Assembly (NCBI GenBank): GCA_028703835.1
Contig: JAQVMB010000014.1
Coordinates: forward strand, 1 to 38,778
Source of the DNA: Candidatus Peribacteraceae bacterium
GTDB lineage: Bacteria > Patescibacteriota > Gracilibacteria > Peribacterales > Peribacteraceae
Direction of reading: 5' to 3'
DNA length: 38,778 nt
Shown here: positions 14,401 to 32,308 of the stretch, in pieces
Layout of the letters: each line of letters starts with the position of its first letter
Numbering within the stretch: the stretch's first letter is position 1
Translations under genes and position numbers: made by a program
Notes under the pieces: generated by a model
Seen by the model: only the letters and a program-made list of their open reading frames with translations
Databases searched by the model: none
Told to the model about the DNA's origin: nothing

Positions 14401-17400
14401 CGTGGTGGCCGTGCGTCCCGACGGTTCGCCGGTCGCCGGCCAGCGCGTGACGGTGCAGCTGTACGCGCGTACCTGGAACACCACGCGCAAGAAGGGCGTG
14501 GACGGGCAGTTCTACTACGACAACCGCCCGACCGATACCTTCATCCGCGAGACGGCGGTGACGACGGGGAAGGACGGGAAGGCGCAGGCGGCTTTGGCCG
14601 TGGACAAAGGAGGCGAGTACCGCCTGGTGGCGGTGGCCGCGGACGGGAAGGGGCGGCAGTCGAAGGCGGACGCCGGCGTCTACGTCTGGTCCACGACCTT
14701 CGTGAACTGGCCGCACTCCAACAACGACCGCATCGGCATCGAAACCGACAAGGCGCAGTACGACGTCGGTGATACCGCCGTGCTCCTCGCCAAATCCCCG
14801 TACCAGGGAAAGGGCGTGAAGGCGCTCGTGACGGTGGAACGCGAACAAGTCATCCGCAAGCAGGTGATCGACGTGGAATCGAGCGGACAGGCCATCAGCA
14901 TCCCCGTCACCGAAGATCTCGCGCCCAATGCCTTCGTCTCCGTGATCATCCTCAAGCCGCGGATGGGCGAGACGTTCGACGAGCAGGGAAGGGACACGGG
15001 TGCGCCGGCCTTCAAGGCGGGATACGTGAAGCTGAACGTGGGCCTGAAAGAGAAGAAACTGGACGTGCAGGTGACGACGGACAAGGACACGTACGCGCCG
15101 GGCGAGACGGTGCGCGTCTCCCTCGCGACCGCCGACCACGCGGGCAAGCCCGTCCGCTCCGAACTGTCCTTGGGCGTCGTGGACATGAGCCTCCTCGCCC
15201 TCGCCGGCTTCGAACAGCCCGACTTGGTGCGGACATTCTGGAACGAGCGCAGCTTGGGCGTGCAGACGTCCGTGACGATCCTGCGGCTGCTCGAGCGCTT
15301 CAAGCCGGGCTCCAAGGGGGGCGGAGGAGGGGACTTCGAGACGCGCAAGCGGGGCACCTTCAAGGACACGGCGTACTGGAACCCTTCCGTCCTCACGGAC
15401 GACCAGGGAAAAGCCTCCGTCTCCTTCGCGCTCCCGGACAACCTCACCACCTGGAAGCTGCTTGCCGTCGCGCAGACGGCAGGCAACACGTTCGGCACGG
15501 GCATGAAAGACATCGTGGAAACGAAAAAGGTCCTCCTGCGCCCGGTGCGTCCGCGCTTCGCGGTCCGCGGCGACGAGATCCGCATCGGCGCCATCGTCCA
15601 CAACCAATCGGGGGAGAAAAAAACATTCACCGTTTCCCTCGCGGGAAGTGGCTTCGCGCTGACCGGCAAAGCATCCGTCGGCGTCACGGTGCCGAAGGAC
15701 GGCATGGAGAAAGTGGAATTCCCCGTCCGCATCGGTGACGTCGCGCGCGCGACGTTCCTGTTCCTCGCGGAAACGCAGGATGCGCGTGACGAAGTGGAAG
15801 AAACCATTCCCGTCCACACCTTCGGCACGCCGCAGACCGTCACCACCTCCGCTTCCGTCGAGGAAGGCGTGACCGAATCCGTCCTCGTCCCCTCCGTGCG
15901 CGACGCCGCGGACGGGACGCTCGCCGTCACGATCTCTCCCACTATGGCGACGTACCTGCCGACGGGCCTGGAAGCATCCGTGCAATTCCCGTACGGCTGC
16001 ACGGAACAAACCGTCTCCGCCATCCTGCCCTCGATCGCGGTGAAGGAGCTGCAGGGATTCCAGGCGTTCAAGATCACGGACGACGAAACGCTGCGCCGCA
16101 ACGTGACCGAAGCGATGCAGAAGCTGTATGACGCCCAGCGGAGCGACGGCGGTTTCGGCTTCTGGGCCGAGAGCGACGAGAGCCATCCGTACCTGACTTC
16201 CTACGTCCTGTACGCGATGCAGCTGACCCGGAACGCGGGCTACGCCGTCGACGAAAAAGTGATGGAACGGGCGCGCACCTACCTGCAGGAACGCCTCCGG
16301 ACCCTCGACGTCCGCAACACCCTGGACCTGACGGCGCGGACCTACATCCTGTACGTGCTCGGCGAAGGGGGCAGGAGCGACGCGGGCGCCCTGCAGGCGG
16401 TGTTCGAGAAACGCGGGCAACTCCCGGTCTTCGCCCGAGCGCAGCTGGCTTCCGCCCTCCACCGGGCGGGGTCGTCCGTTGCGCGCGCGCAGTCGCTCGC
16501 CGTCATCCGCGAACTCCTGAACGAAGCGAAGGTCGACCCGCGCGGGACGCACTTCGAGGAAAAGAAAGGGGCGCTGTACCGGGACGTGATGCACACGAAC
16601 GACCGCACCACCGCCCTCGTCCTGCTCGCGCTGCTCCGCGTCGAGCCGTCGCACCCGTTCATCCCGAACATTGTCCGCCACCTGTTGGCCGTCCGCGAAG
16701 GCGGACAGTGGGACACGACGCAATCCACCACGCACGCGCTCCTGGCGCTGACGGAATTCCTCCGCACGACGGAAGAAATGGATGCCGCCTTCGATGCCGC
16801 CGTGCTCGTGAACGGCAACGAACTGCTCCGCAAATCCTTCACGCCGCAATCCGTCCTCACGCGCGGCGTCGCGACGCTGTCACTGGATGACCTGCGCCGC
16901 GGCGCGCTCAACGACGTGGCGCTCTCGAAGGAGGGGAAAGGCCGCCTGTACTACGACGTCATCCTCACCTATTTCTACACGCCGGAAACCGTCCTCCCCG
17001 CGGAAGAAGGGCTGAGTATCCGCCGGACCGTGCAGCCGCTGCAGGGACGGGACGACGACGCTTCAGTGACCGCCGCACGCGTCGGCGAGACGTACCGCGT
17101 TTCCCTCACCGTCACGGCCGATGACGACCGGCATTTCGTCGCCGTCGAAAGCCCCCTGCCCGCCGGCATGGAAGCCATCGACTTCCAGTTGCAGACGTCG
17201 CAGCGCCAGCAACTGGGCGGATCGGTGAAGGCCGACGACAAGCTCCTGCCCTGGTCGGAAGACCCGTGGGCGCAAGCGCAGCGCCGATTCACGCACGTCG
17301 AATTCCGCGATGACCGCGTCTTCCTCTTCGCCGAGCGGCTGCCCGCAGGCATCTACCGGTACGAGTACCTCGTCCGCGCCACGACTCCCGGCCGCTTCCG

Positions 17401-17485
17401 CGACCGTCCGGCGCGCGCATGGGAGATGTATTACCCCGAAACGTTCGGGCAGACCGGCGGCAGCTGGTTCTCCGTCACGCCGTAA
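11411..17485 (+). CDS. Bacterial alpha-2-macroglobulin with thioester motif
   Basis: A 2024-aa envelope protein. It has an N-terminal membrane segment (about 18-38, FPLAAATVVVLICGTVFALYP) without a good lipobox, then three Ig-like SbsA-type domains (conserved FNQPMD, FRPSEPLLQGEKYVFEI). Macroglobulin domains follow (TERPVYAAGDTVHFKA near 740; DKDTYAPGETVRVSL near 1225), then the alpha-2-macroglobulin core (SFALPDNLTTWKLLAVAQT near 1340), and the thioester Cys1530-Thr-Glu-Gln1533 in FPYGCTEQTV within an alpha-toroid region. It is longer than E. coli YfhM (about 1530-1650 aa), mainly through the N-terminal Ig-like part. Such proteins trap attacking proteases covalently. pbpC follows after one base, matching the known pairing of the families. 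Confidence 0.93.
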   Translation: MALFPGLSSLQAHFRKASFPLAAATVVVLICGTVFALYPRSGSRGLPLVRHVSAQSDLRMELPEPMNRTSVEQHLLIPSDTKGALEWDGDTLVFRPSEPLLQGEKYVFEICKNAQTEKGSVLGRSLSFTFQVSGAPSVASAIPGSGSLHIPATAQISIVFDRPVVALTQAQGEPQATLGTSWPITFDPPLDGRWRWLSTFAAEFIPAKPLTLATRHTVRVPAGIETVNGDKTEKDFTWSFETLRPSVVAADPAPGSRLAGPTTAVSLTFNQPMDADRARTSLSLLRLPSAASSSSFPSEEQRKRGWDIGKDTLLPPSVGSLSGSVVAIKDIHYGTKEEQGKTVVDRATLVLVPAAPLAYASAYGLTVRKGILAREGSLGGTEDYSFTFSTVGPLAVEKAQYQYNALHLVFNNPMDDASLRNGITMSPEPENWDDLDLATSMWGENREISAYPSLQPSTDYVLTVTADAADRFGQRLKEPYVFRFKTDPLPPEVSVRSKGEFGIFERGKPPVFHLNAVNVSRLDLEYAPLPFPDFLAWQRQRRTGGGGTVSLAGRDGMRTWSMPQQNVLNAWQATAFDVQERVGSTLSPGLYALTARAPEYVWQNGKVKEQVVQQQFFAVTNIALTLKFSGSRALVWAVNMNDGSPVSGASVGFHAGDGTVVTGGQTDKDGFFEAPLALADFAEADYEWRPEFYVTAEKDGDIAFLSSEWADGIRPEDFAYPSDFRGIQTPPNRLEAYVYTERPVYAAGDTVHFKAVLRVRDANGTMALPATKKAIVAATDAEGREVYRRSLDISAFGSVNDSFPLDKNASLGMYNLNVQLPPESRTGEVSVGASFSVLAYRKPSYRIDLTPASTDYANRDTVSFDVAASYYFGAPMAGAAVEWRAESTDYHFNRYTDGWYSFATEEHWCWEDCAPATRGLTEGRGALDAGGRMNVSFPVRIDDKGTSQVVSVEADVTDPDNQIVSNRTSVLVHKADVYAGIRSAEYVLTPGQQAKADVVAVRPDGSPVAGQRVTVQLYARTWNTTRKKGVDGQFYYDNRPTDTFIRETAVTTGKDGKAQAALAVDKGGEYRLVAVAADGKGRQSKADAGVYVWSTTFVNWPHSNNDRIGIETDKAQYDVGDTAVLLAKSPYQGKGVKALVTVEREQVIRKQVIDVESSGQAISIPVTEDLAPNAFVSVIILKPRMGETFDEQGRDTGAPAFKAGYVKLNVGLKEKKLDVQVTTDKDTYAPGETVRVSLATADHAGKPVRSELSLGVVDMSLLALAGFEQPDLVRTFWNERSLGVQTSVTILRLLERFKPGSKGGGGGDFETRKRGTFKDTAYWNPSVLTDDQGKASVSFALPDNLTTWKLLAVAQTAGNTFGTGMKDIVETKKVLLRPVRPRFAVRGDEIRIGAIVHNQSGEKKTFTVSLAGSGFALTGKASVGVTVPKDGMEKVEFPVRIGDVARATFLFLAETQDARDEVEETIPVHTFGTPQTVTTSASVEEGVTESVLVPSVRDAADGTLAVTISPTMATYLPTGLEASVQFPYGCTEQTVSAILPSIAVKELQGFQAFKITDDETLRRNVTEAMQKLYDAQRSDGGFGFWAESDESHPYLTSYVLYAMQLTRNAGYAVDEKVMERARTYLQERLRTLDVRNTLDLTARTYILYVLGEGGRSDAGALQAVFEKRGQLPVFARAQLASALHRAGSSVARAQSLAVIRELLNEAKVDPRGTHFEEKKGALYRDVMHTNDRTTALVLLALLRVEPSHPFIPNIVRHLLAVREGGQWDTTQSTTHALLALTEFLRTTEEMDAAFDAAVLVNGNELLRKSFTPQSVLTRGVATLSLDDLRRGALNDVALSKEGKGRLYYDVILTYFYTPETVLPAEEGLSIRRTVQPLQGRDDDASVTAARVGETYRVSLTVTADDDRHFVAVESPLPAGMEAIDFQLQTSQRQQLGGSVKADDKLLPWSEDPWAQAQRRFTHVEFRDDRVFLFAERLPAGIYRYEYLVRATTPGRFRDRPARAWEMYYPETFGQTGGSWFSVTP

Positions 17486-17486
17486 C

Positions 17487-19835
17487 ATGCGCCTGCGCAG
17501 GTCGTTCACCGTCGCGGCGGCCGTTCCGGTCCTTCTTGTTCTCGCGGCGGCATTCTGGCCGCTGCCCGCGCGTGTGCGCGCACCGACCGGCCAGACGTCG
17601 CTGCGCCTCCTCGACCGGGAAGGACGGCTGCTCTACACGGTCCGTCCTCCGGAAGGATCCGGCGTCCATGCGCTCCCGCTCCGCGACATCCCCCGCACTC
17701 TCACCGATGCGCTGATCGCGACGGAAGACCGCGGCTTCCGCGACCACCGCGGCGTCAGCATCCGGGGCGTGGTCCGGGCGGCGCTGCAAAACCTGGCCGC
17801 CGGACGCATCGTCTCGGGCGCCAGCACCATCACGCAACAGCTGGTCCGCATGCGTCTCCCCCCCGGGAAGCGCAACGTCCCGCGCAAATTGCGTGAAATG
17901 CTGTATGCATGGAAGCTGGAACGGGTCCTGTCGAAAGAGGACATCCTCGAGGCCTACCTCAACGAGGCGTACTTCGGCCACCGGGCGTACGGCGTGCGGA
18001 ACGCCTCCCTCACGTTCTTCGGCAGGAATCCGCAGGAGTTGTCGACGGGGGAGAGCGCCTTCCTCGTGGGGCTGCTGCAAGCGCCCGGTTCGTACGACCC
18101 GTTCCGCGACCCCGCTCCCGGCACCGAGCGCAGGCGCCGCGTCCTCGATGCCATGCTGGCGACGGGCGTCATCACGGAGGAAGCGCACGCGCAGGCGGCG
18201 CAGGAACCCCTCACGCTCTCCCGCGGCCGCGTGTCCATCGAAGCGCCGCACTTCGTCTTCTGGCTGCTGGAGCAACGGGAAGCGGACCTGGAAGGACTCA
18301 CCGAGGTGCGCACGACCATTGACCTGTCCCTGCAGCGCGAGGCGGAACGCATCGTCGGGCGGCAATTGGAAGCGCTGCAAGACCGCAACGTGACCTCCGC
18401 AGCCGTCGTCGTGCTCGATGCGCACGACGGGGACGTGTTGGCGATGGTGGGAAGCGCCGACTACTTTGACGACGCGCATGACGGCGCCGTGAACGTCGCC
18501 GTGGCCCCGCGCCAGCCCGGATCCGCCCTGAAGCCGTTCACCTACGCGCTCGCGCTCGAACGCGGCGACACGCCCGCCACCGTCGTAGCCGACGTGGAAA
18601 CGCAGTTCCTGACGGAGGAGGGGACGCCGTACGTCCCGCGCAATTACGATTACGAATACCACGGACTCGTCCGCTACCGTGAGGCGCTCGCCAACTCGTA
18701 CAACATGGCGGCGGTGCGCGTCCTGGAGCGCGTGGGCGTCTCCACGCTCCTGTCGTTCCTGAAAGACGCGGGGCTCTCGACGCTCCGCCGGACGCCCGAG
18801 CATTACGGACTCGCCCTGACACTCGGGGATGCCGAAACCACGTTACTGGAACTCTCACGCGCGTACGCCCTCTTCCCGCGCGGCGGGACGACGCTGCCGC
18901 TGCGCACACTCCTGGATGATCCGCGGGAACAAGGCAGGCGCCTCCTCAGCGAACAGACGGCCTGGCTGATCGGCGACATCCTCTCGGACAACGATGCGCG
19001 CCTGGAAGAATTCGGAGGCGACAGCCCGCTCGCCTTCCGGAGGCCCGTGGCGGCGAAGACGGGCACCACGCGCAACTCGCGGGACAACTGGACCGTGGGC
19101 TTCACGCCCGACCGCATCGTGGGCGTGTGGGTGGGCAACGCCGACAACGCCCCCATGCGCGGCACTTCCGGCGTCACGGGGGCGGGGCCGATTTTCCACG
19201 ACGTGATGGAGGCGGCCGTCCGCGACCTGCCGCCGGACGGCTTCCCGCAGCCAAGCGGCATCGTCCAGGCGGAGATCTGCCGCCTCTCGGGCAAACTCCC
19301 GACGCCGGCCTGCACGGCGCGTACGGTGGAATCATTCCGCGCGGGCACCGTGCCGACCGAAGAGGATGACATCTTCACCGCCGTTCCCGTCGATGCCCGC
19401 AACGGCCTGCTGGCGAGCGACACGTGCGATCCCTCCCACGTGCAGATGCGGACGTTCGCCGTGTTCCCTCCCGACGTACGCGCTTGGGCGCGTGAAACGG
19501 GATGGCCGGAACCGCCACGCGAACCGTCCCCGCTCTGCGGCACGCATGCGCCGACGGGTGATGCCAGGCTCGCGATCCGTTCCCCCCTGGCGGGGGACAC
19601 GTTCGAAATCGATCCGCTCATCCCCCTCGCCTCCCAGAAGATCCCCCTTCGCGCGGAAGCGGGCAGCGCCGTGCGTACGGTGCGGTGGTACGTGGACGGG
19701 AAGCACGTCGGCGACGGGAACGCGCCCGATTTCGCCGCCGGATGGACGCCGTCGCCCGGCACATGGACGGTGGAAGCGAAAGCGGGAGAGGTCTCCGAAC
19801 ACATCGTCATCAACGTCACGAAAAGGCTGCCGTGA
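17487..19835 (+). CDS. pbpC: Penicillin-binding protein 1C
   Basis: A bifunctional cell-wall synthase: glycosyltransferase GT51 then transpeptidase. The 782-aa protein has an N-terminal membrane anchor (about 7-25), GT51 motifs with catalytic Glu80 in ATEDRGFRDHRG, GASTITQQLVRM, RKLREMLYAWKLER and EAYLNEAYFG, then the transpeptidase motifs Ser346-x-x-Lys349 (GSALKPF), Ser404-x-Asn406 and Lys524-Thr-Gly526. A C-terminal beta domain (about 690-782, RSPLAGDTFEIDP ... VRWYVDGKHVG) is the PBP1C-specific tail. It starts one base after the alpha-2-macroglobulin stop (TAA-C-ATG), so translation is likely coupled. In other bacteria this pairing is interpreted as sealing wall breaches while the macroglobulin traps the attacker's protease. 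Confidence 0.94.
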   Translation: MRLRRSFTVAAAVPVLLVLAAAFWPLPARVRAPTGQTSLRLLDREGRLLYTVRPPEGSGVHALPLRDIPRTLTDALIATEDRGFRDHRGVSIRGVVRAALQNLAAGRIVSGASTITQQLVRMRLPPGKRNVPRKLREMLYAWKLERVLSKEDILEAYLNEAYFGHRAYGVRNASLTFFGRNPQELSTGESAFLVGLLQAPGSYDPFRDPAPGTERRRRVLDAMLATGVITEEAHAQAAQEPLTLSRGRVSIEAPHFVFWLLEQREADLEGLTEVRTTIDLSLQREAERIVGRQLEALQDRNVTSAAVVVLDAHDGDVLAMVGSADYFDDAHDGAVNVAVAPRQPGSALKPFTYALALERGDTPATVVADVETQFLTEEGTPYVPRNYDYEYHGLVRYREALANSYNMAAVRVLERVGVSTLLSFLKDAGLSTLRRTPEHYGLALTLGDAETTLLELSRAYALFPRGGTTLPLRTLLDDPREQGRRLLSEQTAWLIGDILSDNDARLEEFGGDSPLAFRRPVAAKTGTTRNSRDNWTVGFTPDRIVGVWVGNADNAPMRGTSGVTGAGPIFHDVMEAAVRDLPPDGFPQPSGIVQAEICRLSGKLPTPACTARTVESFRAGTVPTEEDDIFTAVPVDARNGLLASDTCDPSHVQMRTFAVFPPDVRAWARETGWPEPPREPSPLCGTHAPTGDARLAIRSPLAGDTFEIDPLIPLASQKIPLRAEAGSAVRTVRWYVDGKHVGDGNAPDFAAGWTPSPGTWTVEAKAGEVSEHIVINVTKRLP

Positions 19836-19858: not shown

Positions 19859-20629
19859 TCACCGCGCGGCGCGGGAGCACCCCTGCTCCATCAGGCGCGT
19901 CCGCATGGGGAGCGTCACGACGACGCGATGTTCGTCGGGAACGTCTTCATCCAGTTCCACGGTGCCGTCCGCGACGAACTCGCCCGTCACCACTTCCTCC
20001 AGCTCCACGGTGCCGCGGAGGTGTTTCGCAAGTTCCTGCGCCATGGAGAGCATCAACCCCTGCGTCCCGCCGACCATGCGCAACGTTTCCGACGGCGCGC
20101 CGCCGTCCTTCGACAAGGTCGGGAAAATCACCGACGAACGGAAATTGACGACGAGGCTTTCCGGCGCGGCCGCCACGTCGACGAACACCGTCATCTCCCG
20201 TTCGGGGTCCGCTTCGGTGAACACGGCGGCGATATCCTTGAAGATCATCTCCAGGACATCGCGATCCGCGACTGCGTGGACATGCGGGGACTCGATGACC
20301 CATCGCACGCTCCGCGGGACACCCGCCTTCTCCCGCATCGCGTCAAAGAGGTCCTTGATGCAGTGTTCCTGCGGTTGCAGGCGCATCATCCCGTCTTCGA
20401 TTTTGGCGAGCAGCAACATCGACTCCAGCGCGACGCTCAACTTGCGCGCATTCGCGTACACGTGCTGCACGAGCTGCCGCTGGACAGGATTGAGCGCGCC
20501 GGTGGTGTCCTTGCGCAACCGCCCGCAGGCCCAACGGATGGCGGTGAGCGGACTGCGCAAGCCGTGGCTCTCCAGAAAGAGGTATTTCATCATGCCTTCG
20601 GACGGCGGAGAACCTCTTTTTTTCATCAT
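19859..20629 (-). CDS. Soluble histidine-kinase-like protein with degenerate catalytic motifs
   Basis: About 256 aa, without membrane or sensor domain. A HisKA-like helical region starts almost at once: ESHGLRSPLTAIRWA holds the His (about residue 22), but the usual His-Glu is His-Gly. A C-terminal region resembles the GHKL ATPase fold in order (ADRDVLEMIFKDIAAVF for the N box; GGTQGLMLSMAQELAKHLRG for the G2 area), but the N-box Asn and the DxGxG motif are not visible. It starts five bases after the stop of the receiver gene, with two adjacent ATGs (20629, 20626), so both are one operon. It may be a pseudokinase or phosphotransfer scaffold for that receiver. Confidence 0.7.
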   Translation of the reverse strand: MMKKRGSPPSEGMMKYLFLESHGLRSPLTAIRWACGRLRKDTTGALNPVQRQLVQHVYANARKLSVALESMLLLAKIEDGMMRLQPQEHCIKDLFDAMREKAGVPRSVRWVIESPHVHAVADRDVLEMIFKDIAAVFTEADPEREMTVFVDVAAAPESLVVNFRSSVIFPTLSKDGGAPSETLRMVGGTQGLMLSMAQELAKHLRGTVELEEVVTGEFVADGTVELDEDVPDEHRVVVTLPMRTRLMEQGCSRAAR

Positions 20630-20634
20630 GGTGG

Positions 20635-20994
20635 TCAGAGGTAACGCTGGATCTTCGGCCACAGTTCATCCTCGTCCATGTCGCTCTTGATGAAGTAATC
20701 CTTCGCACCCAGCTTCTCGCACTTCTCATGGTCCAGGTAATCGCTGAGGTTCGAGAGGATGATGACGGGGAATGTATAGGCCTTTTCCTTGATGTGGCTG
20801 AGAACGGCATAGCCGTCGCTCTTCGGCATGAGCAAGTCCAACAGGACGAGATGCGGTTGCCGACGGTCGATGGTCTGGATGGCCTCCTCGCCGTTGGCGG
20901 CCTCCTCGACGGTCACGCCCTGTTCCTGGAGCGTCAGCCGGAGCGTTTCTCGGAGGAACGCATCGTCTTCAACGAGGAGCACGACTTTGGACAT
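20635..20994 (-). CDS. Single-domain response regulator (CheY-like receiver)
   Basis: A 119-aa protein made of one receiver domain. It has the acidic pair Glu9-Asp10/Asp11 in VEDD, phospho-acceptor Asp53 in LVLLDLLMP, switch Ser81 in IILSN and Lys103 in YFIKSD, so it looks fully functional. There is no output domain; it must act by binding a partner. The start at 20994 is MSKVVLLVEDD; the longer ORF start lies before the promoter. The kinase-like gene follows five bases downstream. Confidence 0.92.
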   Translation of the reverse strand: MSKVVLLVEDDAFLRETLRLTLQEQGVTVEEAANGEEAIQTIDRRQPHLVLLDLLMPKSDGYAVLSHIKEKAYTFPVIILSNLSDYLDHEKCEKLGAKDYFIKSDMDEDELWPKIQRYL

Positions 20995-21045
20995 GGCGTG
21001 GGAGGGGGAGGAGGGAAGGGGAACGTCGCAGGTCGGAAGGCAAAC

Positions 21046-21051
21046 AGTATA
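21046..21051 (-). promoter_or_regulatory. -10 box for the receiver/kinase operon
   Basis: TGG-TATACT on the minus strand (21051-21046) with extended TGn, about 45 nt before the receiver ATG. The leader is pyrimidine-rich and has no Shine-Dalgarno site. Confidence 0.5.
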
Positions 21052-21126
21052 CCAGTGCCTGCCACCCACCAATGACAATTCCGTTATTTTCGGCGGGGAG
21101 AATGCTGGGAGACACGCGGCGTTTCT

Positions 21127-21134
21127 GCTAGAAT
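21127..21134 (+). promoter_or_regulatory. Extended -10 for the Hcp-like gene
   Basis: TGC-TAGAAT (21126-21134 region). It overlaps the first in-frame ATG at 21133, so translation probably begins at the later ATG (21166), with a leader of about 25 nt. Confidence 0.45.
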
Positions 21135-21165
21135 GATCGTTCGCTTATCCATTACCCATTGCTCT

Positions 21166-21882
21166 ATGAGACACGCAGGAACCATGTTGGGATTGGCCGT
21201 CGCGGGGATCGCGGTCATCGGGTGGTCCGTCGTCCAGGCGCAAACACTCTCCGGCACAAGCATCATTTTCGGCTCTTCCGCCGCGTCGGCGGACGCGGAA
21301 AGCGGACGATCGTCCGGCGGCGGCGCATCGGAGGACGCGGGCATCCGCTTCTTCAATGTCCCGCGTTCGTCATCCTCGCTCTCCCCGTCCAGTTCGTCCG
21401 TCGCCGTCCCCGTCCCGGAGGAAGACGGTTCCGCCCCGTTTCCCGCCGGCATCAATTTGCGGGTCGATGATTTTCCGCAGCCGAATCAGGCCGTGGACAT
21501 CCCTTTGGAATCGTACAGCTGGTCGGCGGAGCAGTCGTCCGGCAGGAACAGGGCGTCCCTGGGGGACTTCCGCATCGTCATGAAACAGAACCTGGCCTCG
21601 CCGCGCCTGTTCCTCGCGGCGGCGAACGGCGACCGCCTCCCGCGCGCGATGATCACCGTCCGCCGCAACGGCATGGCGCAGGAATATTTGCGTTGGACCC
21701 TGTCGGACGTGACGGTCTCGTCGTTCCAAACCGTTTCGACGCCCGCGGAAGCGCTCCCGACGGACACGCTCACGCTGGATTACGGCCGCATCGAATTCCA
21801 AGTGACGCCCGTCCTCCAGAACGGAACGGCCGGCGCATCCATCCGCAACGGCTGGGACGTGCTCGCGGAGCAGGAGCTCTGA
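21166..21882 (+). CDS. Exported Hcp-like (type VI secretion tube family) protein
   Basis: A 238-aa protein with an N-terminal signal peptide (MRHAGTMLGLAVAGIAVIGW..., likely cleavage after VVQA), then a Ser/Gly-rich spacer (about 45-85) and a C-terminal domain (about 100-238) with the Hcp1 pattern: IPLESYSWSAEQ, ASLGDFRIVMKQNLASPRLF, LPRAMITVRRNG, QEYLRWTLSDVTVSSFQT and LTLDYGRIEFQVTP. Hcp proteins form hexameric rings stacked into tubes in type VI secretion and normally lack a signal peptide. No other type VI gene is in this window. A Sec-exported Hcp-fold protein might form an extracellular tube or a surface ring. It is divergent from the receiver operon. Confidence 0.8.
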   Translation: MRHAGTMLGLAVAGIAVIGWSVVQAQTLSGTSIIFGSSAASADAESGRSSGGGASEDAGIRFFNVPRSSSSLSPSSSSVAVPVPEEDGSAPFPAGINLRVDDFPQPNQAVDIPLESYSWSAEQSSGRNRASLGDFRIVMKQNLASPRLFLAAANGDRLPRAMITVRRNGMAQEYLRWTLSDVTVSSFQTVSTPAEALPTDTLTLDYGRIEFQVTPVLQNGTAGASIRNGWDVLAEQEL

Positions 21883-21940: not shown

Positions 21941-23482
21941 TCACCATGCGGCCCGTTCCGCCAAGCCGATGCCGTACTCGGGCCAGAACGTACCCGCGGA
22001 CGGGCCGCCATTGCACTGGCCGTCGGATCCCGACGGTCCGCGGACCCACAGGACCGCATCGACGAGGGGGTGCCCCGTCGCGACGGTGGGACGCCGTCCC
22101 AAGGAGCGGCCGGAAGGGTTGCACCACTGCTTGTCCGGCGCGGGGCCGTTTCCGTTCCTGCCGGCATCGAAGACGAAGTGTTTTCCGCCGACCAGTGCGG
22201 ACAGTTCCGAACCGTAGCGGATGTTTTCCTCGTCCGTCTCGAAATTGGAAATGTTGAGCGAGAACCCGTCGGCTTCGTCGATGCCCGCCTTCTGCAAGCG
22301 CGATGCCATCTCGCCCGATTGGTTCCAGGATGGATGGCCGGCGTCGATGTACACCGCGATGTTCCCCTGCGCCTTGAACGTCCGGACCGCCTCACGCAGG
22401 AGCTGCATGCGCGTATCCCGGTCGGCCTGCGACAGGCAATCCATGCCAGCAAGCGCATCCGGCTCCAGGAGGACCACGGCCTTGCGGGATCCGATGCCCG
22501 CCGCGAGACCCTTGACCCACGCACGGTACGCATCCGGCGAACCGGATCCTCCCGCGGAATAACCGCCGCAGTCGCGCTGCGGGATGTTGTACGCGACGTA
22601 CACAGGCAACGCGCCCGCTTGCACGACCGTGTCCGTCATGGAGCGCGCATCCGCCGCGACATCCTGGTTCCAGTTCCCGAACCATTGCGTCTCCGCCTGG
22701 TCGGCGATCTTCTGGAGCATCTGCGCATCATGCGGGCGGGAAGTCCGCCAAGCCTCCGCCTGTTTCTGGACATCGTTGGACCGATTCACGTAGAGCGTCG
22801 CGCCCGCAAACGGGTTGGGTCCCGCGGAAGGAACGGACGGTTCCCCGACCGCCTTCGCCGCGGGAACGGAAGAGGACACTGAAGAAGAAGAAGAAGAAGA
22901 AGAAGAAGAAGAAGAAGAAGAAGAAGAAGAAGAAGAAGAAGCGGAAACAACGGAGGAACGGTGTTGTGACAGCACCTCCAGAAGATGGGGCAACACAGAC
23001 GACGTCACCGAAGAGGAGGAAACAGATGCCGCCGATGATGAAGATGAAAAGGACGATGCGGCGAGAGATCCCGGCGTGGAAATGGACACCGTTGTTTCGC
23101 CAAGCTGCGTTCCGTCCAGATCCCGTGCTACGAAACGGATGTGATAGGGGCCGCTCCCTTTCCAGTTCCATCCGCTCAGGTCCACTTGCGCTTCCTTATG
23201 GGGATACTCCGCGAACGATGTTTCCATGGGGTTGAGACGGTCGCCGTCGACCTGCCAATGCATCGTGTAGGTTGCGACATCGCGGTTTTGGACCATGGCT
23301 TTGAACGGTTGCGTGCCGCCCGTCGTGGCGCCGTCGACGGGCCACCAAACCTCCGGCGCGCCCGCAGCCTCGGCGGCCGCGACGGGGATAGAAGGCAGGG
23401 GGCCTGCAGCGGCCATGAAGAAGGCCAAGACGATAAGCAACGTGTTCGCCCGTATGTGTGTCTGCCGGGATTGGTCGCGCAT
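21941..23482 (-). CDS. Secreted GH6-family glycosidase with poly-Ser linker
   Basis: About 513 aa from Met at 23482 (earlier in-frame Mets exist at 23494 and above). A signal peptide (THIRANTLLIVLAFFMAAAG) leads to an Ig/carbohydrate-binding-like domain (about 40-135, WWPVDGA, MHWQVDGDRLN). A long Ser linker follows (about 140-210), partly encoded by a (GAA)20 microsatellite, then a GH6 catalytic domain. GH6 motifs: VAYNIPQRDCGGYSAGG with the catalytic Asp, VLLEPDALAG, YIDAGHPSW, FVFDAGRNGNGP, QWCNPSGRSLG and LWVRGPSGSDGQC. GH6 enzymes cut beta-1,4-glucan. It sits next to GT2 and GH8 genes, so it probably trims or releases the polymer made there; degradation of environmental cellulose is the alternative. 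Confidence 0.92.
   Translation of the reverse strand: MRDQSRQTHIRANTLLIVLAFFMAAAGPLPSIPVAAAEAAGAPEVWWPVDGATTGGTQPFKAMVQNRDVATYTMHWQVDGDRLNPMETSFAEYPHKEAQVDLSGWNWKGSGPYHIRFVARDLDGTQLGETTVSISTPGSLAASSFSSSSSAASVSSSSVTSSVLPHLLEVLSQHRSSVVSASSSSSSSSSSSSSSSSSSSSVSSSVPAAKAVGEPSVPSAGPNPFAGATLYVNRSNDVQKQAEAWRTSRPHDAQMLQKIADQAETQWFGNWNQDVAADARSMTDTVVQAGALPVYVAYNIPQRDCGGYSAGGSGSPDAYRAWVKGLAAGIGSRKAVVLLEPDALAGMDCLSQADRDTRMQLLREAVRTFKAQGNIAVYIDAGHPSWNQSGEMASRLQKAGIDEADGFSLNISNFETDEENIRYGSELSALVGGKHFVFDAGRNGNGPAPDKQWCNPSGRSLGRRPTVATGHPLVDAVLWVRGPSGSDGQCNGGPSAGTFWPEYGIGLAERAAW
22881..22940. repeat. (GAA)20 trinucleotide microsatellite
   Basis: Twenty uninterrupted GAA units on the plus strand encode a run of TCT serine codons in the GH6 linker. 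Slippage would change linker length in steps of one Ser without frameshift. Confidence 0.95.
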
Positions 23483-23806
23483 GCGCGCACGCATGCACAA
23501 GGTCAGGAGGGCTGGCCTCATGTGGGGAAGTGGGGAAGGGGATGCGACCCTAAGAAGGAGAGGGGAACGACGCAAGCGGGAAGCGACAATGTTTGCCAGT
23601 TATTTAAAATGCTGTCTGGTCGCTGTTCCACCTTCTTCGCATGTCATAAAGACAAATCAGAGGCCGTTCCACGAAGCCGGCCATGATTGACAATGGTGAT
23701 CACCGGAAGTCTCTTCACCTTGCAAATCGGGAAAAGTCCATCCGGATTTTGTAAGTGGCTTCCGCGGGCGCCGTCAAGAAAAGCAACGCGTCTCCTCCCA
23801 CTCGAG

Positions 23807-26128
23807 ATGAAACAGATTTCCATCGCAGCACCGCCCTCCTTCGCCCTGCCCGAGATCCTGAAAACGCTGCAGGAGGCCGAATTGACACGGCGGCCCGGAC
23901 GGCATCGCCACAAGGCCCGCGGCGGAAAAAACGTGCAAGACGGCTACGTACACGTCAGCATCATCATTCCGACGTACAACGAACGGGAGAATCTCCCGGC
24001 ATTGCTGCGGAGACTGGAACGGAGCATGAACAAAGAGCGGTACGACTACGAGTGCCTCATCATCGATGACCGTTCGACGGACGGGACGCTGTCGCGCCTC
24101 CGGGAGCTGCGGACATCCGTCCCGTACAGAGTCATCCCCAAGCAGGGCCCCCGCGGCAAATCCACCTCCATCCTGGAAGGGCTCCGCCACGCCCGGGGCA
24201 GCATCGTGGCCATGATCGACGCGGACCTGCAGTACCCGCCGGAAGCGATACCGAACATGGTGCGGAAAATCGGGCGGTACGACATCGTGGTCGCACGGCG
24301 TTCGGAACGCCGGACCAGCCTGCGGCGATCCGCTTTCAGCAGGACGTTCAATCTCGTCTTCGGGCGCATCCTCCTGTCCCTGGATGTCGACGTCCAGTCC
24401 GGCCTGAAGGTGTTCCGCCGCAAAACGTTCGCCCTGGCGGAGTTCTCCCCCTCGCCGTGGGGCTTCGACTACCAATTCCTCTTCCGCGCGAAGCGGATGG
24501 GATGGACCCTGGGATCCGAACCGATCATCTTCGAAGAGCGCTTCCACGGCACGAGCAACGTCCGGATGCTGTCGGTGGGCATGGAACTCGCCTGGGGCGC
24601 GGTCACGTTGCGATGGAAACAGCTGTGGAAGGACATCTTCGCCTTCGTATCCTACCCCCACAAGTCGGAGCTGCTCTTCGACGGGTTCGGCAACGACACC
24701 GACTACCTCTATCTCCCGGAAATCCACAGCGCGAAGAAGCAGGTGTACTGGGAATCCGTTTCGCTGCTCCTGGCCGTCGTCGCGACGCTGGCGGGAGCGG
24801 TCATCGGGCTCAGCCTGCTGCTGGGCGTCCCGGCGACCGTGATTCTCTCGGGAGCGGTCGCATGCCTGTACCTCTGGCTCATCACATTCAAGATAGCGGT
24901 GCTGTACAAGTCGACGCGCCACCGCCCCATCACCGTGTCTCCGGAAGCGATCCGCGCCCTGCGCACGGAAGACCTGCCGCACTACACCGTCCTGGTGCCG
25001 CTGTACCGGGAAGCGGCGGTCGTCCCGCAGATCCTGCAGGCGATGACGGCCATCGACTACCCGCCCGACAAACTCGAAGTGCTCATCACCCTCGAAGCGT
25101 ACGACCACGAAACCCGCGCAGCCATCGAGAAGACCCGTTTCCCCGCCCACGTGCGCGTCATCACGCTCCCGGACGTGCGCCCCAAAACGAAACCGAAAGC
25201 CCTGAACGTCGCGTTCCGCGAGGCGAAAGGGGAGTTCCTCGTCATCTACGACGCCGAAATCGTTCCCGACGCGGACCAGCTGAAGAAAGCGGTGGTCGCG
25301 TTCCGTTCCCGGCCGGACATCGCCTGCCTCCAGACGCGGCTGGATCATTACAACGCCGGCCAGAACTGGCTCACGAAACTGTTCAATGCGGAATTCAGCT
25401 TCTATTACGACCTCTTCCTCCCAGGCCTGCAGTCCATGGGATACCCGCTGCCGCTCTCGGGGCACAGCACGCACTTCCGGACCGGAATCCTCCGGCAGAT
25501 CGGCGCATGGGATCCGTACAACGTGACCGAAGATTGCGACGTGGGCATCCGGCTCTACCGCTGCGGGTACCGGAGCGACCTGCTCGATTCGCTGAGCAAG
25601 GAAGAAGCCACGGGTACGATCGGCGCGTGGACCATCCAGCGGTCGCGATGGGTGAAAGGTTTCATCCAGACGTCCATCATCCACCTCCGGCATCCGCTGC
25701 GCCTGAAGAACGAACTGGGAGGATGGAAAAACGTCGTCGCCTTCCTGACCATCATCCCCGGCAGCGTGCTCATCAACATTCTGAACCTCGGATACTGGCT
25801 TCTGCTGATCGGCTGGGTCGCGACGGGAGCGGAAACGATCCAGAGCTTGTTTCCGGGCATCATCCTCTACACCTCGCTGCTGTCGTTCGTCGTGGGGAAT
25901 TTCCTCTTCACGTACTGCAACCTTCTCGGCTCGTACCGGCGGGGACGCTACGACTTCGTGAAGTACAGCCTGCTCTCCTTCGCGTACTGGATTCTGCTGT
26001 CATACGCGACGATACGGGGGGCGCTGCAGATGGTGCTGCACCCGCATCTCTGGGAAAAAACCGATCACGGCACCCACCTGTCCGCACCCGACTATGCGCC
26101 TGCTTTCACGCGCCATCAGACGGTTTGA
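23807..26128 (+). CDS. Double GT2: DPM1-like domain fused to cellulose-synthase-like domain
   Basis: About 773 aa from the ATG at 23807 (an alternative start at 23687 adds 40 residues). The N-terminal GT2 domain resembles dolichol/polyprenyl-phosphate sugar transferases: VSIIIPTYNERENLPALLRR (about 50), DDRSTDGT, and DADLQYPPE (about 138). Two hydrophobic helices follow (about 317-366). The second GT2 has processive-synthase features: LVPLYREAAVVPQIL (about 393), IYDAEIVPD, TEDCDVGIRLYR and the QxxRW motif QRSRWVKG. At least three or four C-terminal membrane helices follow. This architecture suggests inner-membrane polymer synthesis with a cytoplasmic lipid-sugar-making domain attached. The next gene overlaps its end by 35 nt. 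Substrate is unknown; beta-glucan is suggested only by the neighbours. Confidence 0.88.
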   Translation: MKQISIAAPPSFALPEILKTLQEAELTRRPGRHRHKARGGKNVQDGYVHVSIIIPTYNERENLPALLRRLERSMNKERYDYECLIIDDRSTDGTLSRLRELRTSVPYRVIPKQGPRGKSTSILEGLRHARGSIVAMIDADLQYPPEAIPNMVRKIGRYDIVVARRSERRTSLRRSAFSRTFNLVFGRILLSLDVDVQSGLKVFRRKTFALAEFSPSPWGFDYQFLFRAKRMGWTLGSEPIIFEERFHGTSNVRMLSVGMELAWGAVTLRWKQLWKDIFAFVSYPHKSELLFDGFGNDTDYLYLPEIHSAKKQVYWESVSLLLAVVATLAGAVIGLSLLLGVPATVILSGAVACLYLWLITFKIAVLYKSTRHRPITVSPEAIRALRTEDLPHYTVLVPLYREAAVVPQILQAMTAIDYPPDKLEVLITLEAYDHETRAAIEKTRFPAHVRVITLPDVRPKTKPKALNVAFREAKGEFLVIYDAEIVPDADQLKKAVVAFRSRPDIACLQTRLDHYNAGQNWLTKLFNAEFSFYYDLFLPGLQSMGYPLPLSGHSTHFRTGILRQIGAWDPYNVTEDCDVGIRLYRCGYRSDLLDSLSKEEATGTIGAWTIQRSRWVKGFIQTSIIHLRHPLRLKNELGGWKNVVAFLTIIPGSVLINILNLGYWLLLIGWVATGAETIQSLFPGIILYTSLLSFVVGNFLFTYCNLLGSYRRGRYDFVKYSLLSFAYWILLSYATIRGALQMVLHPHLWEKTDHGTHLSAPDYAPAFTRHQTV

Positions 26129-28859
26129 CGACGAAGTCATCCTTGCGATCGTCGCGGCCGCCGCGGGAATTGCCGTCCTGGCGTTCGTGCACCGCCTGGA
26201 CCTGGCGAAGACCCTCATCGACCAGAATTCGCACCTCAACTTCGCGCGCCTGACCTTCGACAGCCTGACGCCGGGCATGAGCCAGATCGGCTTCTGGCCT
26301 CCGCTCCTGCATGTCCTGCTCATCCCGTTCGTCGCCATCCGCCCGCTCTACGCCTCGGGATTGGCCGCGGCGCCGGTCCTCGTGCCCTCCCTCTTCCTGG
26401 CGGCCGTCTTCCTGCGGCGCATCTGCCTGGAGCTGACGGGCAGCAGGACCTCGGGGAACATCGCCGCGGCCTTGCTCCTGCTCAATCCGTACCTGCTCTA
26501 CTACGCCGTCACGCCGATGATGGAAGTCCTGTTCATCGCGAACGTCTGCGCGACAGCGTACTTCCTGCTCCGGTGGCTGCGTGACGAACGCATGCGCGAC
26601 CTGATCCTGGCCGGCGTCTTCGTCAGTCTCGCATGCCTCTCCCGGTACGAAGGTCTGATGTTGCTTCCGGTGACCAGTTCGATCCTGCTCGCGCACCTGT
26701 TCGCCCGGAAGCGCCGGTACCATCAGGTGGAGGCGCTCCTGCTGCTCTTCGGCCTCCTGGCCGTCCTCGGCGTCACGTTCATCGTCGCGTACAGTTGGCT
26801 CTACGGCGGCACGCCCTTCGCGTTTTCCGGCGGAAGCTGGCTCCGCGACCCCGCCCCCGGCCTCCGTCCCGCACGCCACGACGCCGTCGCTTCGTTGCTC
26901 TACGCGCTCTACGCGTCGTTCTACATGCTCGGGCATCCGATGGTGGCGGCAGGCCTCTTCTCGACGGGCGCCCTGCTCCTCCTCCCGCGCCTGCGCACGC
27001 AACACGCCGCCGTTCTGTTCGTCCTCCTGAGCCCGCTCCTCTTCATCCTGCTGAGCGAATACATGGGCACGATCATCATCAACGTGCCCGATCTTCCGCC
27101 GTACGGCTTCTTCAACAACGACCGGTACGGCCTCACGTGGGCGGGCGCGGCCGTCGCGGCTCCCGCCCTGCTCTTCCATGCCCTGCGCTCCCAAGCTGCA
27201 TCCGGTTTCTGGAAAAGAGCAGCCACTGTCGTCGGCACCGCCGTCCTCCTGTTCCTCACGTTGGCCGAAGGGCGCCGCCTCCAGCACACGGTTTTCCGGG
27301 AACAGTATGCGGTCGTCCGCAGGGACATCAACAGCCCGAGCCGCGAACAGGAGGAAGTCGCACGCTTCCTCAGCGCACGTTACGACGGGGGGACGGTCCT
27401 GATGGCGCGCGTCGACAACGACCCCCTCATCGCGAACGCCGCGATCCCGCTCAACCGATACCTCTACGAAGGCAACTACCGCATCTTCGACCAGGCGCTG
27501 CAGGACCCGTGGGTCTTCGCGCGGTGGGTGGTGATGCACAACGCAGCGGCTTCGGGCGACGCGTGGGCGCTCCAGAACGAACCGGTGTTCCGCGAATGGG
27601 GCATCTCGCAGGTATTCCCGATGTATTACGACCTCGCCTTCGAGAACGAAAGCCGGCGGGTCTACCGCCTCAACGAGGAACACACGCGGCAGCTGATTGC
27701 AGCCAACGGATACCGGGCAGACGTCATGCCGTCCATGAACGGAACCGTGGTCGCCTGGGACCCGGAAACGATCTACGGGCGCATGCACGTGGAACCGGGA
27801 GAGCAGACGAAAGCCCTGTCGGCGACGAAGGAAGAGATCCGCACCGCACTCCTGCCGTTCTATGAGCAACGGCTGCGGCCGCTGTATGAGCGGGGATACT
27901 TCGCGGACGCACGGGGCGAAGGGACGTCCGAATCACAATCCTACGCGCTCTGGCAGTCCTTCGCCGTGGACGACCGCGAGACGTTCGACCGCGTCTGGCA
28001 ATGGACCCAAGGGCACCTGCAACGTCCGGACGGACTCTTCCATTGGAAATTCATGACCCCGAACCCCGGGCTCGTCCTGATCCTCGACGGCAACTCCGCG
28101 ACGGATTCGGACGTGGACATCGCCTACCTGCTCCTCGAAGCGGGACGGGCATGGGACGAACCGTCCTACGTGCGGGAAGCCACCGGCATCATGCGGAGCA
28201 TCTGGACGCTGGAGACCGCGGCGGGACGAGGAAACAGGAGGCACCTGACGGCGGGCAATTGGGCGGAAAGCCCTTCATCCGTCGTCATGAACCCGTCTTA
28301 CTTCGCACCCTATGCCTTCCGCGCGTTCGCGGAAGTGCTCCCCGAATACGATTGGGACGGGCTGGTCGAACAGGGATACGAAGACGTGGAACGGGCGTCA
28401 CGGCGGCGCTTGGGAGAGAAAGGCGTCGTCTTCCTGCCGCCCGACTGGGTGACGCTGCAGCGGCCGGACGGGACCCTGCGGCCGTTCGAAGGGAAAGACC
28501 ATTCTCTCGACTACTCCTACGACGCGTTCCGCACGTTCTTCCGCATCGCCCTCGATGCCGCCATTTCGGGAAACGAACAGGCGACGCGCTACCTCGGCCA
28601 TGCGACGACGTTCGAGAGCGACTGGCAGCACACCGGTACGCCGTGCAGCATCTACCCGGCCTCGGGGACCGGATGCCTGCTCAGCGTCGGGACGCTCGCA
28701 GGCCCCCTCGGCATCTGGAGTATCACGCAGCCGCGTTTCGCGGAGCAGCTGGTCGCGACGCACTATCTCCGCGACGGGAAAGTGAACATCGCGGACGATG
28801 CGGCATTCTACGAGCGGAGTTGGTACTGGTTCGCGTTATGGCTGTGGAGCAGGCCGTGA
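26094..28859 (+). CDS. GT-C-like membrane protein fused to a GH8 glycosidase domain
   Basis: A 921-aa protein. Residues 1 to about 385 hold around ten membrane helices and GT39-like features (DQNSHLNFARLTFDSLTPG, GFWPPLLHVLLIPF in the first outside loop). A middle part (about 390-585) is soluble. The C-terminal part (about 590-921) matches GH8 (BcsZ-type endoglucanase): TSE613SQSYALW with the general-acid Glu, WQWTQGHL, NSATD671SDVDIAYLLLEAG, and YSYD810AFRTFFRIAL. BcsZ is a standard partner of bacterial cellulose synthase. Fusion to a GT-C-like membrane module is unusual. It overlaps the double-GT2 gene by 35 nt, so both are one operon. The enzyme domain should face outside. GH8 call firm; membrane half moderate. 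Confidence 0.88.
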   Translation: MRLLSRAIRRFDDEVILAIVAAAAGIAVLAFVHRLDLAKTLIDQNSHLNFARLTFDSLTPGMSQIGFWPPLLHVLLIPFVAIRPLYASGLAAAPVLVPSLFLAAVFLRRICLELTGSRTSGNIAAALLLLNPYLLYYAVTPMMEVLFIANVCATAYFLLRWLRDERMRDLILAGVFVSLACLSRYEGLMLLPVTSSILLAHLFARKRRYHQVEALLLLFGLLAVLGVTFIVAYSWLYGGTPFAFSGGSWLRDPAPGLRPARHDAVASLLYALYASFYMLGHPMVAAGLFSTGALLLLPRLRTQHAAVLFVLLSPLLFILLSEYMGTIIINVPDLPPYGFFNNDRYGLTWAGAAVAAPALLFHALRSQAASGFWKRAATVVGTAVLLFLTLAEGRRLQHTVFREQYAVVRRDINSPSREQEEVARFLSARYDGGTVLMARVDNDPLIANAAIPLNRYLYEGNYRIFDQALQDPWVFARWVVMHNAAASGDAWALQNEPVFREWGISQVFPMYYDLAFENESRRVYRLNEEHTRQLIAANGYRADVMPSMNGTVVAWDPETIYGRMHVEPGEQTKALSATKEEIRTALLPFYEQRLRPLYERGYFADARGEGTSESQSYALWQSFAVDDRETFDRVWQWTQGHLQRPDGLFHWKFMTPNPGLVLILDGNSATDSDVDIAYLLLEAGRAWDEPSYVREATGIMRSIWTLETAAGRGNRRHLTAGNWAESPSSVVMNPSYFAPYAFRAFAEVLPEYDWDGLVEQGYEDVERASRRRLGEKGVVFLPPDWVTLQRPDGTLRPFEGKDHSLDYSYDAFRTFFRIALDAAISGNEQATRYLGHATTFESDWQHTGTPCSIYPASGTGCLLSVGTLAGPLGIWSITQPRFAEQLVATHYLRDGKVNIADDAAFYERSWYWFALWLWSRP

Positions 28860-31983: not shown

Positions 31984-32042
31984 AAAGGATCTTGCGACTC
32001 ACTGTGTCGCTTTCGCTCCTTGTTCGTCTGCAATTCACTTTT

Positions 32043-32232
32043 GGGGCTGCAGCTCAGCTGTCTGGGATCGCGAAGCGATCCGCAATTGAAAAGTTGCGCT
32101 GCGCGTACGTTCCTTCCATCATTATTGCCACCATTGTGGGGCTGCAGCTCAGCTGTCTGGGATCGCGAAGCGATCCGCAATTGAAAAGTTGCGCTGCGCG
32201 TACGTTCCTTCCATCATTATTGCCACCATTGT
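32043..32232. repeat. Two tandem 95-bp repeats carrying the 5' start of tRNA-Ala
   Basis: Copies begin at 32043 and 32138, and the true tRNA-Ala begins at 32233, so the spacing is 95 bp each time. Each copy opens with GGGGCTGCAGCTCAGCTG, one base different from the tRNA-Ala 5' end. A perfect GGATCGC-GAA-GCGATCC hairpin and a shared leader ending CCACCATTGT follow. The anticodon and T arms are missing, so these are not functional tRNAs. Confidence 0.9.
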
Positions 32233-32308
32233 GGGGCTGTAGCTCAGCTGATAGAGCGCTGCATTCGCATTGCAGAGGTCAGGGGTTTAAGTCCCCTCAG
32301 CTCCACCA
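32233..32308 (+). tRNA. tRNA-Ala (CGC)
   Basis: Acceptor GGGGCTG/CAGCTCC with the G3-U70 alanine identity pair, D arm GCTC...GAGC, anticodon stem CTGCA/TGCAG with loop TTCGCAT (anticodon CGC), T arm AGGGG-TTTAAGT-CCCCT, discriminator A and encoded CCA. Confidence 0.93.

Follow-up and report, generated by a model that had tools for sequence, protein, structure and literature searches.

Patescibacteria are ultra-small and mostly uncultured, and how they build their surfaces and hold on to their hosts is poorly understood. In the Bcs systems BcsZ is thought to cut or edit the chain. The GH6 family is mainly cellulolytic, and in tunicates it occurs in a CesA-GH6 fusion; we know of no GT-C or GH8 in the tunicate system. 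That system, in which a cellulose synthase and a GH6 are described in one organism (PMC7464555), differs from the locus studied here in belonging to an animal. In Streptomyces, the gene for the GH6 protein CslZ is described as lying after the cslA-glxA operon and being divergently transcribed, with CslZ and an LPMO acting in glucan deposition at the hyphal tips (PMC9040799), and the synthesis of cellulose in vitro by CslA-GlxA is also described (PMC11022532). In multi-component glycosylation, as outlined in PMC8035078, undecaprenyl phosphate is charged by a GT-A enzyme, flipping is ascribed to a GtrA-type protein, and a GT-C enzyme then passes the sugar on to a polymer of the cell wall on the outer side.

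We analysed a stretch of 38,778 nucleotides (the window) from a Candidatus Peribacteraceae bacterium, which carries a cassette with features in common with these systems. It is like Bcs (BcsA with BcsZ) in having a processive-type GT2 with membrane helices and a GH8 of BcsZ-like fold (Z 29), and elsewhere in the phylum the cassettes made of separate genes have a BcsA-like GT2; the window cassette is unlike Bcs in that its GH8 forms one protein with a PMT-like GT-C and that the genome has no match to BcsB or PilZ. The source genome (1.34 Mb, 40 contigs, 98.5% complete) gave no match to BcsB, PilZ or GGDEF, with controls positive in 2, 5 and 8 of 14, so that the absence of BcsB and PilZ reported in the first-pass annotation was borne out for the genome searched, and a full Bcs system was rejected. 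With the Streptomyces cslA-glxA-cslZ genes (PMC9040799) the cassette shares a GT2 synthase next to which a GH6 gene is transcribed in the divergent direction, and in three relatives an extracellular oxidoreductase-like GSDH protein lies between the glycosyltransferases and the GH6; no radical copper oxidase (GlxA) was matched by Pfam among the window proteins scanned. In contrast to the Streptomyces genes, the window adds a GT-C and a GH8 and has a fused GT2-N. The GtrA/GtrB/GT-C systems are echoed by a DPM1/GtrB-like GT2 domain, a GtrA encoded in the genome and the PMT-like GT-C; in the window, however, a polymerase-type GT2 is joined to the lipid-sugar synthase domain and a hydrolase to the GT-C.

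Our searches of titles and the beginnings of abstracts, which had preprints and most subscription journals outside their scope, turned up no description of such a system; among their results, obtained without naming the fusion, there was also no PMT-like GT-C joined to an endoglucanase. Our best reading is that the set is a modular variant of the known synthase-plus-hydrolase systems, recurrent in Patescibacteria, in which the GT-C-GH8 fusion is unusual.

The three genes and their proteins

The coordinates of the open reading frames and the Pfam domains agree in placing the three genes together (Table 1), as the first-pass annotation had them. The start of the GT-C-GH8 gene overlaps the stop of the GT2-GT2 gene by 35 bases. 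The GH6 gene was missed by a codon-score gene caller, and for it the Pfam match was decisive. The GT2-GT2 tandem and the GT-C-GH8 fusion, also proposed earlier, were recovered by Pfam matches and then by comparison of AlphaFold models with the PDB.

Table 1. Features of the cassette, in positions of the window.
Feature	Position	Strand	Remarks
GH6 gene	21941..23575	-	544 aa, secreted; divergent from GT2-GT2 gene; Pfam
GH6 catalytic domain	22007..22756	-	RDC (D335), EPD (D373) and SDG (D518) retained; alignment with Cel6
(GAA)20 perfect repeat	22881..22941	-	codes for poly-Ser linker of GH6 protein
N-terminal module of GH6 protein	23096..23380	-	present in 3/106 relatives searched
GT2-GT2 gene	23687..26128	+	tandem membrane protein, 813 aa from TTG; in-frame ATG at 23807
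GT2-N domain	23942..24646	+	DPM1/GtrB/ArnC-like, putative polyprenyl-phosphate sugar synthase; 5mlz 1.1e-24, 5mm1 Z 26.1
GT2-C with flanking membrane helices	24764..26038	+	processive-type synthase; DAE, TED, QRSRW; PF13641 at 24977-25660
GT-C-GH8 gene	26094..28859	+	921 aa fusion; Pfam
GT-C domain	26094..27800	+	PMT/AglB-like fold
GH8 domain	27807..28856	+	acid E613 in SESQSYA, base D810 in DYSYDAFR; assigned by alignment to solved GH8

In the GT2-GT2 protein, Pfam matched PF00535 in the N-terminal part (6.5e-42) and PF13641 in the C-terminal part (7.7e-38). The AlphaFold model (mean pLDDT 77.9, pTM 0.71) was compared with the PDB by VIA-align. Its GT2-N resembled the dolichyl-phosphate-mannose synthase 5mm1 with an rmsd of 2.0 over 215 residues, and GT2-C with its membrane helices resembled BcsA 9fnn_A (Z 23.6, rmsd 4.2, 368 residues, in an alignment spanning residues 343-760) and the Chlorella virus hyaluronan synthase 8sne_A (Z 21.8, 373 residues). 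Among the structural matches of GT2-C, the highest Z belonged to the mannosyltransferase PcManGT 6yv7_B (Z 25.6, rmsd 3.8, 326 residues), which was also level with BcsA by sequence (2.6e-12 and 1.3e-12, respectively). The best NCBIfam match was PgaC (117 bits) followed by CelA (77 bits), both far below the cut-off. The D..ED..QxxRW signature was present, but the second D of DxD was replaced by E (DAE), and the KAG, QxPH/Q and FxVTxK motifs, fully conserved in the BcsA/CrdS/BgsA synthases, were all three missing from the window GT2-C. Hydropathy indicated two membrane segments ahead of GT2-C and at least two behind it. The positive charges counted near the membrane segments were all on the GT-domain side (13 versus 0), and thus both GT2 domains should be cytosolic. 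The membrane part of the model was BcsA/HAS-like, and the earlier proposal of a processive GT2 was not refuted by structure prediction.

In the GT-C-GH8 protein, PMT_2 (4e-08) and GH8 (3e-35) were matched in one polypeptide, modelled with a mean pLDDT of 80.8 and a pTM of 0.60. The GT-C part was similar to Pmt4 9i5l_A (Z 25.4) and to the archaeal oligosaccharyltransferase 3waj (Z 24.6), and D43-Q44 in its first loop was invariant in all 10 aligned sequences, the window included. The GH8 part has the profile, the fold, the acid Glu and the base Asp of the family; its model gave Z 31 to 5xd0_A and 1cem and 29.2 to BcsZ 9b87_A, with xylanase and chitosanase GH8 folds about equally close (Z 29). 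The "BcsZ-type" label of the first-pass annotation holds in that BcsZ is the best named family and the fold agrees, but the score of 117.6 bits is below the BcsZ equivalog cut-off of 299. The usual acid was missing from the GH8 in three of the 22 cassettes aligned below, one of which also lacked the base, and by eye the GT-C of G515 was without the loop Asp found in the others; some members may therefore have lost activity. G438 has two GH8 genes in tandem (L092:7093-11857), one of them fused to a PMT-like domain and without the usual acid Glu, the other coding for 721 aa, of which the N-terminal half is unassigned.

The GH6 protein is built of a signal-like segment, an N-terminal module (Ig-like by eye), a poly-Ser linker and the GH6 domain, and its single hydrophobic segment covers residues 45-63. 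The GH6 profile (Pfam, 4.2e-59) and the general-acid Asp were both found, the latter by alignment with Cel6; the general-acid motif RDC is retained, and the PGESDG motif reads PSGSDG. It had been called divergent, but a very divergent GH6 was rejected by the match to its closest solved structure, the cellulase Cel6/CelA1 (1up0, phmmer 1.6e-69). By eye on the alignment, the general-acid motif was lost from the GH6 of the three relatives that carry a GSDH protein. The three genomes with the N-terminal module are the three of the 106 searched that are known to carry the cassette, and in one of them, G029, it is also found on one GH113 and one GSDH protein. In-frame length variation of the (GAA)20 microsatellite in the linker is conceivable.

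Gene linkage across the phylum

Among 338 genomes of the class, GH8 was present in three and GH6 in six, and all three GH8 genomes were among the six. Each of the three (the window genome, G029 and G306) has a GH8 fused to GT-C, a GT2-GT2 gene just upstream and a GH6 beside the set, and both hydrolases were absent from all three genomes of the same genus. The GH6 gene is divergent and upstream in the window, whereas in G029, G306 and G576 it lies downstream in convergent orientation, so the set is not one operon. A GalU-like gene adjoins GT2-GT2 in G306 (203 bits, below the cut-off of 327). In the same genome a DIE2/ALG10 family protein, of a family familiar from eukaryotic dolichol pathways, adjoins the GH6 (L027:13158-14450, PF04922 7.4e-35).

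When GTDB contigs were scanned with the alignment of GT-C sequences, 10 loci were returned. GT2-C lay directly upstream of GT-C in nine of them, from eight genomes (one contributed two loci); eight of the nine are labelled as Patescibacterial lineages and L039 only as an uncultured bacterium. The tenth locus, from Bryobacterales, was a weak match without GT2-C. GH6 was close by in six of the nine and absent from L036 and L041, and the contig of L039 ends too soon to tell. In Wildermuthbacteria, Ryanbacteria and Patescibacteria S141 the order was GT2-C, GT-C, a secreted GSDH protein (1156-1492 residues) and GH6; the 1492-residue protein of Ryanbacteria (L038:11736-16214) combines GSDH, PA14, TIG, Kelch and two malectin domains. 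A DPM1-like GT2, GtrA, GT2-C and GT-C follow one another in L040. G029 has a second GT2-GT2/GT-C pair (L041:7587-9953) with neither GH8 nor GH6 nearby, which may be inactive since the DxD-like motif of its GT2-N is lost (DPN). In one further genome (L073) a GT-C fused to a GH5 cellulase stands behind GT2-GT2.

The scan bears on the division of labour between the two kinds of glycosyltransferase. Conceivably, GT-C could itself be the polymerase and use polyprenyl-phosphate sugars, with GT2-C making only a primer or a second lipid donor. The homopolysaccharide of Lactobacillus johnsonii is described as needing a putative bactoprenol glycosyltransferase and a flippase (PMC7117936), and the departure of GT2-C from the BcsA motifs would fit such a scheme. 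We nevertheless regard it as highly improbable, for GT2-C retains QxxRW and a BcsA/HAS-like membrane part, and in four of the nine relatives' loci a GT2-C without fused GT2-N stands beside GT-C.

In a sample of 379 genomes across the phylum, GH8 was found in 23, GH6 in 13 and both in nine, against 0.79 expected (hypergeometric 1.3e-9, kinship not corrected); 14 of the 23 GH8 genomes had no GH6. In 22 of the 23, G619 being the exception, GH8 belonged to one gene set with a GT2. These sets were of two types. In the fused type (n=10: G000, the window genome, and G401, G402, G427, G438, G515, G576, G586, G592 and G650) GH8 follows GT-C in one gene, which in G576 is split by a frame break. In eight of these ten, Pfam or the window-type model recognised the GT-C ahead of GH8; in G586, whose GT-C half had no Pfam match, and in G650 it was recognised by a model built from four Pfam-supported relatives (446 and 578 bits). 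The GT2 of G592 is an upstream open reading frame cut by the contig, which a model of the GT2s of five relatives matched at 201 bits. In the remaining 12 genomes GH8, GT2 and GT-C are separate genes, adjoined in six by a convergent GH6; three of the separate GT-Cs were PMT_2 by Pfam, a fourth (G412) had no PMT_2 match, and the remainder were assigned by a model of our own. The tight GT-C family of the window is rare: it was matched at E <= 1e-20 in 18 of the 379 genomes, at about 850 bits only in G000 and G576, and the other 16 were distant (74-259 bits), several of them without a GT2-C match nearby in the 14 places examined.

For alignments and trees we used 22 rows, namely 20 of the 22 cassettes (G592 and G650, with cut contigs, were omitted) and G029 and G306 from the class sample. 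D, ED and QxxRW were invariant in all 22 GT2s, that of the window included. KAG and QxPQ were present in 12/12 of the separate-gene GT2s and FxVTxK in 9/12, and the one scanned against NCBIfam matched CelA (6.2e-87, 292 bits, cut-off 699); by their sequences, the separate-gene GT2s are BcsA-like. None of the 10 fused-type GT2s, the window included, had KAG, QxPH/Q or FxVTxK, and they carry a WEKT or WSKT motif at the end instead. In the GT2 tree the two types were fully apart (100/100), and the fused type formed two deep clades, while the GH8 tree had long branches and was weak. The correlation of GH8 and GT2 identities was reached by 0/500 permutations for all 22 rows, 0/500 for the 12 separate and 7/500 for the 10 fused ones. 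Two or three different synthases with the same partners are strong evidence for a system.

The gene linkage of the cassette is real, and in the class genomes, the contig scan and the phylum sample alike the genes were clustered, not scattered, and the first-pass annotation was not refuted on this point. Chance proximity of the hydrolases was rejected on the linkage counts and the fusions. A virus-borne cassette was also set aside: 12 IMG/VR stretches matched the two patterns used and none encoded a relative, and a phage collection gave no match.

The same counts weigh on a second explanation, according to which GT2-N, GT2-C and GT-C would glycosylate proteins or another cell-wall polymer, with GH6 and GH8 serving nutrition or host attack and being neighbours by chance. 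The PMT-like fold of GT-C is compatible with it, and so are five GH6 loci (L030, L031, L032, L081, L082) without GT2-C, GT-C or GH8 matches to our models, the GH6 of G586, which lies about 10 kb from the cassette, and the interpretation of the hydrolases of freshwater CPR as degradative, as given in PMC9166423. We consider it improbable, because GT-C is fused to GH8 in several lineages and to GH5 in another, GH8 is nearly confined to GT2 gene sets, and GH8 and GH6 co-occur.

The proposed machine and its product

Building on what was observed directly, namely domains, folds, catalytic residues, gene linkage and recurrent fusions, we propose that the three genes probably serve the synthesis and finishing of a single extracellular polysaccharide, for which a beta-1,4-linked glucan or a close relative is the likeliest candidate. 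GT2-C would polymerise a nucleotide sugar and pass the chain out through its own membrane part, and GT2-N, in the same protein, would make a polyprenyl-phosphate sugar. The latter could be flipped by a GtrA-type protein encoded elsewhere in the genome, where GtrA was found unlinked to the cassette (G000:C3:8914-9252); lipid-sugar synthase, flippase and GT-C, the set of transmembrane glycosylation systems, are thus all three present, by homology only. Outside, GT-C would move the lipid-borne sugar onto the emerging chain or its anchor, and the GT-C-tethered GH8 and the secreted GH6 may cleave or edit the chain in the manner assumed for BcsZ and CslZ. The fusions of GT2-N with GT2-C and of GT-C with GH8 or GH5 indicate that these functions are tied together. 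The identity of the sugar, processivity, the direction of transfer and the action of GH8 and GH6 on the product of this GT2 are what we infer.

The first-pass annotation had suggested a lipid-linked assembly and trimming of beta-glucan, and our results support this in part. That the set forms a machine for making, modifying and trimming a polysaccharide is well supported; the beta-glucan is deduced from GH8 and GH6 and from the parallel cassettes of BcsA type. The term "lipid-linked" likely applies to the donor of GT-C and not necessarily to the main chain. Since different synthases share the same partners, the product of the window cannot be read from the family of its synthase; "beta-1,4-glucan" is derived from the partner hydrolases and the parallel cassettes, not from the window synthase itself.

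A mannose or an amino sugar is also allowed, given the GH113 (mannanase family) directly behind GT-C-GH8 in G586, the structural match to PcManGT and PgaC as the best NCBIfam. The polymer could accordingly be beta-1,4-linked and yet not cellulose-like, that is, a mannan, a glucomannan or an amino-sugar polymer (PgaC/chitosan-like), with the hydrolases as matching editors. This would agree with the motifs of BcsA/CrdS/BgsA missing from GT2-C, with the sequence score of PcManGT, with the xylanase and chitosanase GH8 folds, and with the GH113 of G029, which carries the N-terminal module of the GH6 protein and is encoded elsewhere in the genome, away from the cassette. On the other side stand the mainly cellulolytic GH6 family, the BcsA-like synthases elsewhere in the phylum with the same set of GH8, GT-C and GH6, and the GalU-like gene beside one relative, and we hold such a polymer to be a less probable, though serious, possibility.

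If the cellulose-like reading is true, the cassette would be a further cellulose-type system, one that lacks BcsB as well as the usual c-di-GMP components. A recurrent set of a few genes for making, decorating and trimming a cellulose-like polymer is a concrete candidate that can be tested heterologously, and the fusion of GT-C with an endoglucanase suggests physical coupling of transfer and cutting. More tentatively, and in our opinion with the chances clearly against it, Patescibacteria may possess polysaccharide machines of their own that are confined to the inner membrane, with a lipid-carrier glycosyltransferase and an endoglucanase in one polypeptide. GH8 would cut the emerging chain and the tethered GT-C would cap or anchor the new end with a lipid-borne sugar; short, covalently finished chains would coat the cell and mediate contact with the host, and synthase, transferase and hydrolase (GH8, GH5, GH6) would be interchangeable modules.

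Control and neighbouring genes

Since no c-di-GMP parts were found, control of the system must differ from that of Bcs. Near the cassette, the window encodes a HisKA-domain protein (267 aa) and a response-regulator receiver (19859-21078), and in G029 (L026) a PAS-GAF histidine kinase gene is divergent from GT2-GT2 and accompanied by a gene that is receiver-like by eye. This suggests that the cassette may be under two-component control.

The neighbour of the GH6 gene at 21133-21882 encodes a protein that has a T6SS Hcp domain (PF05638 1.5e-17) and whose N-terminus is signal-like; no other T6SS parts were seen among the window genes scanned. Further away, at 11411-19835, a bacterial alpha-2-macroglobulin (2024 aa) is followed by a transglycosylase/transpeptidase with BiPBP_C, apparently an A2M-PbpC pair. 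On the other side of the cassette, a 95-base unit is repeated 2.2 times with a 99% match (32042-32250), and the start of the unit resembles the 5' end of tRNA-Ala. The tRNA-Ala gene itself lies behind these repeats (32233-32308), which look like broken 5' ends of tRNA-Ala arranged in tandem.
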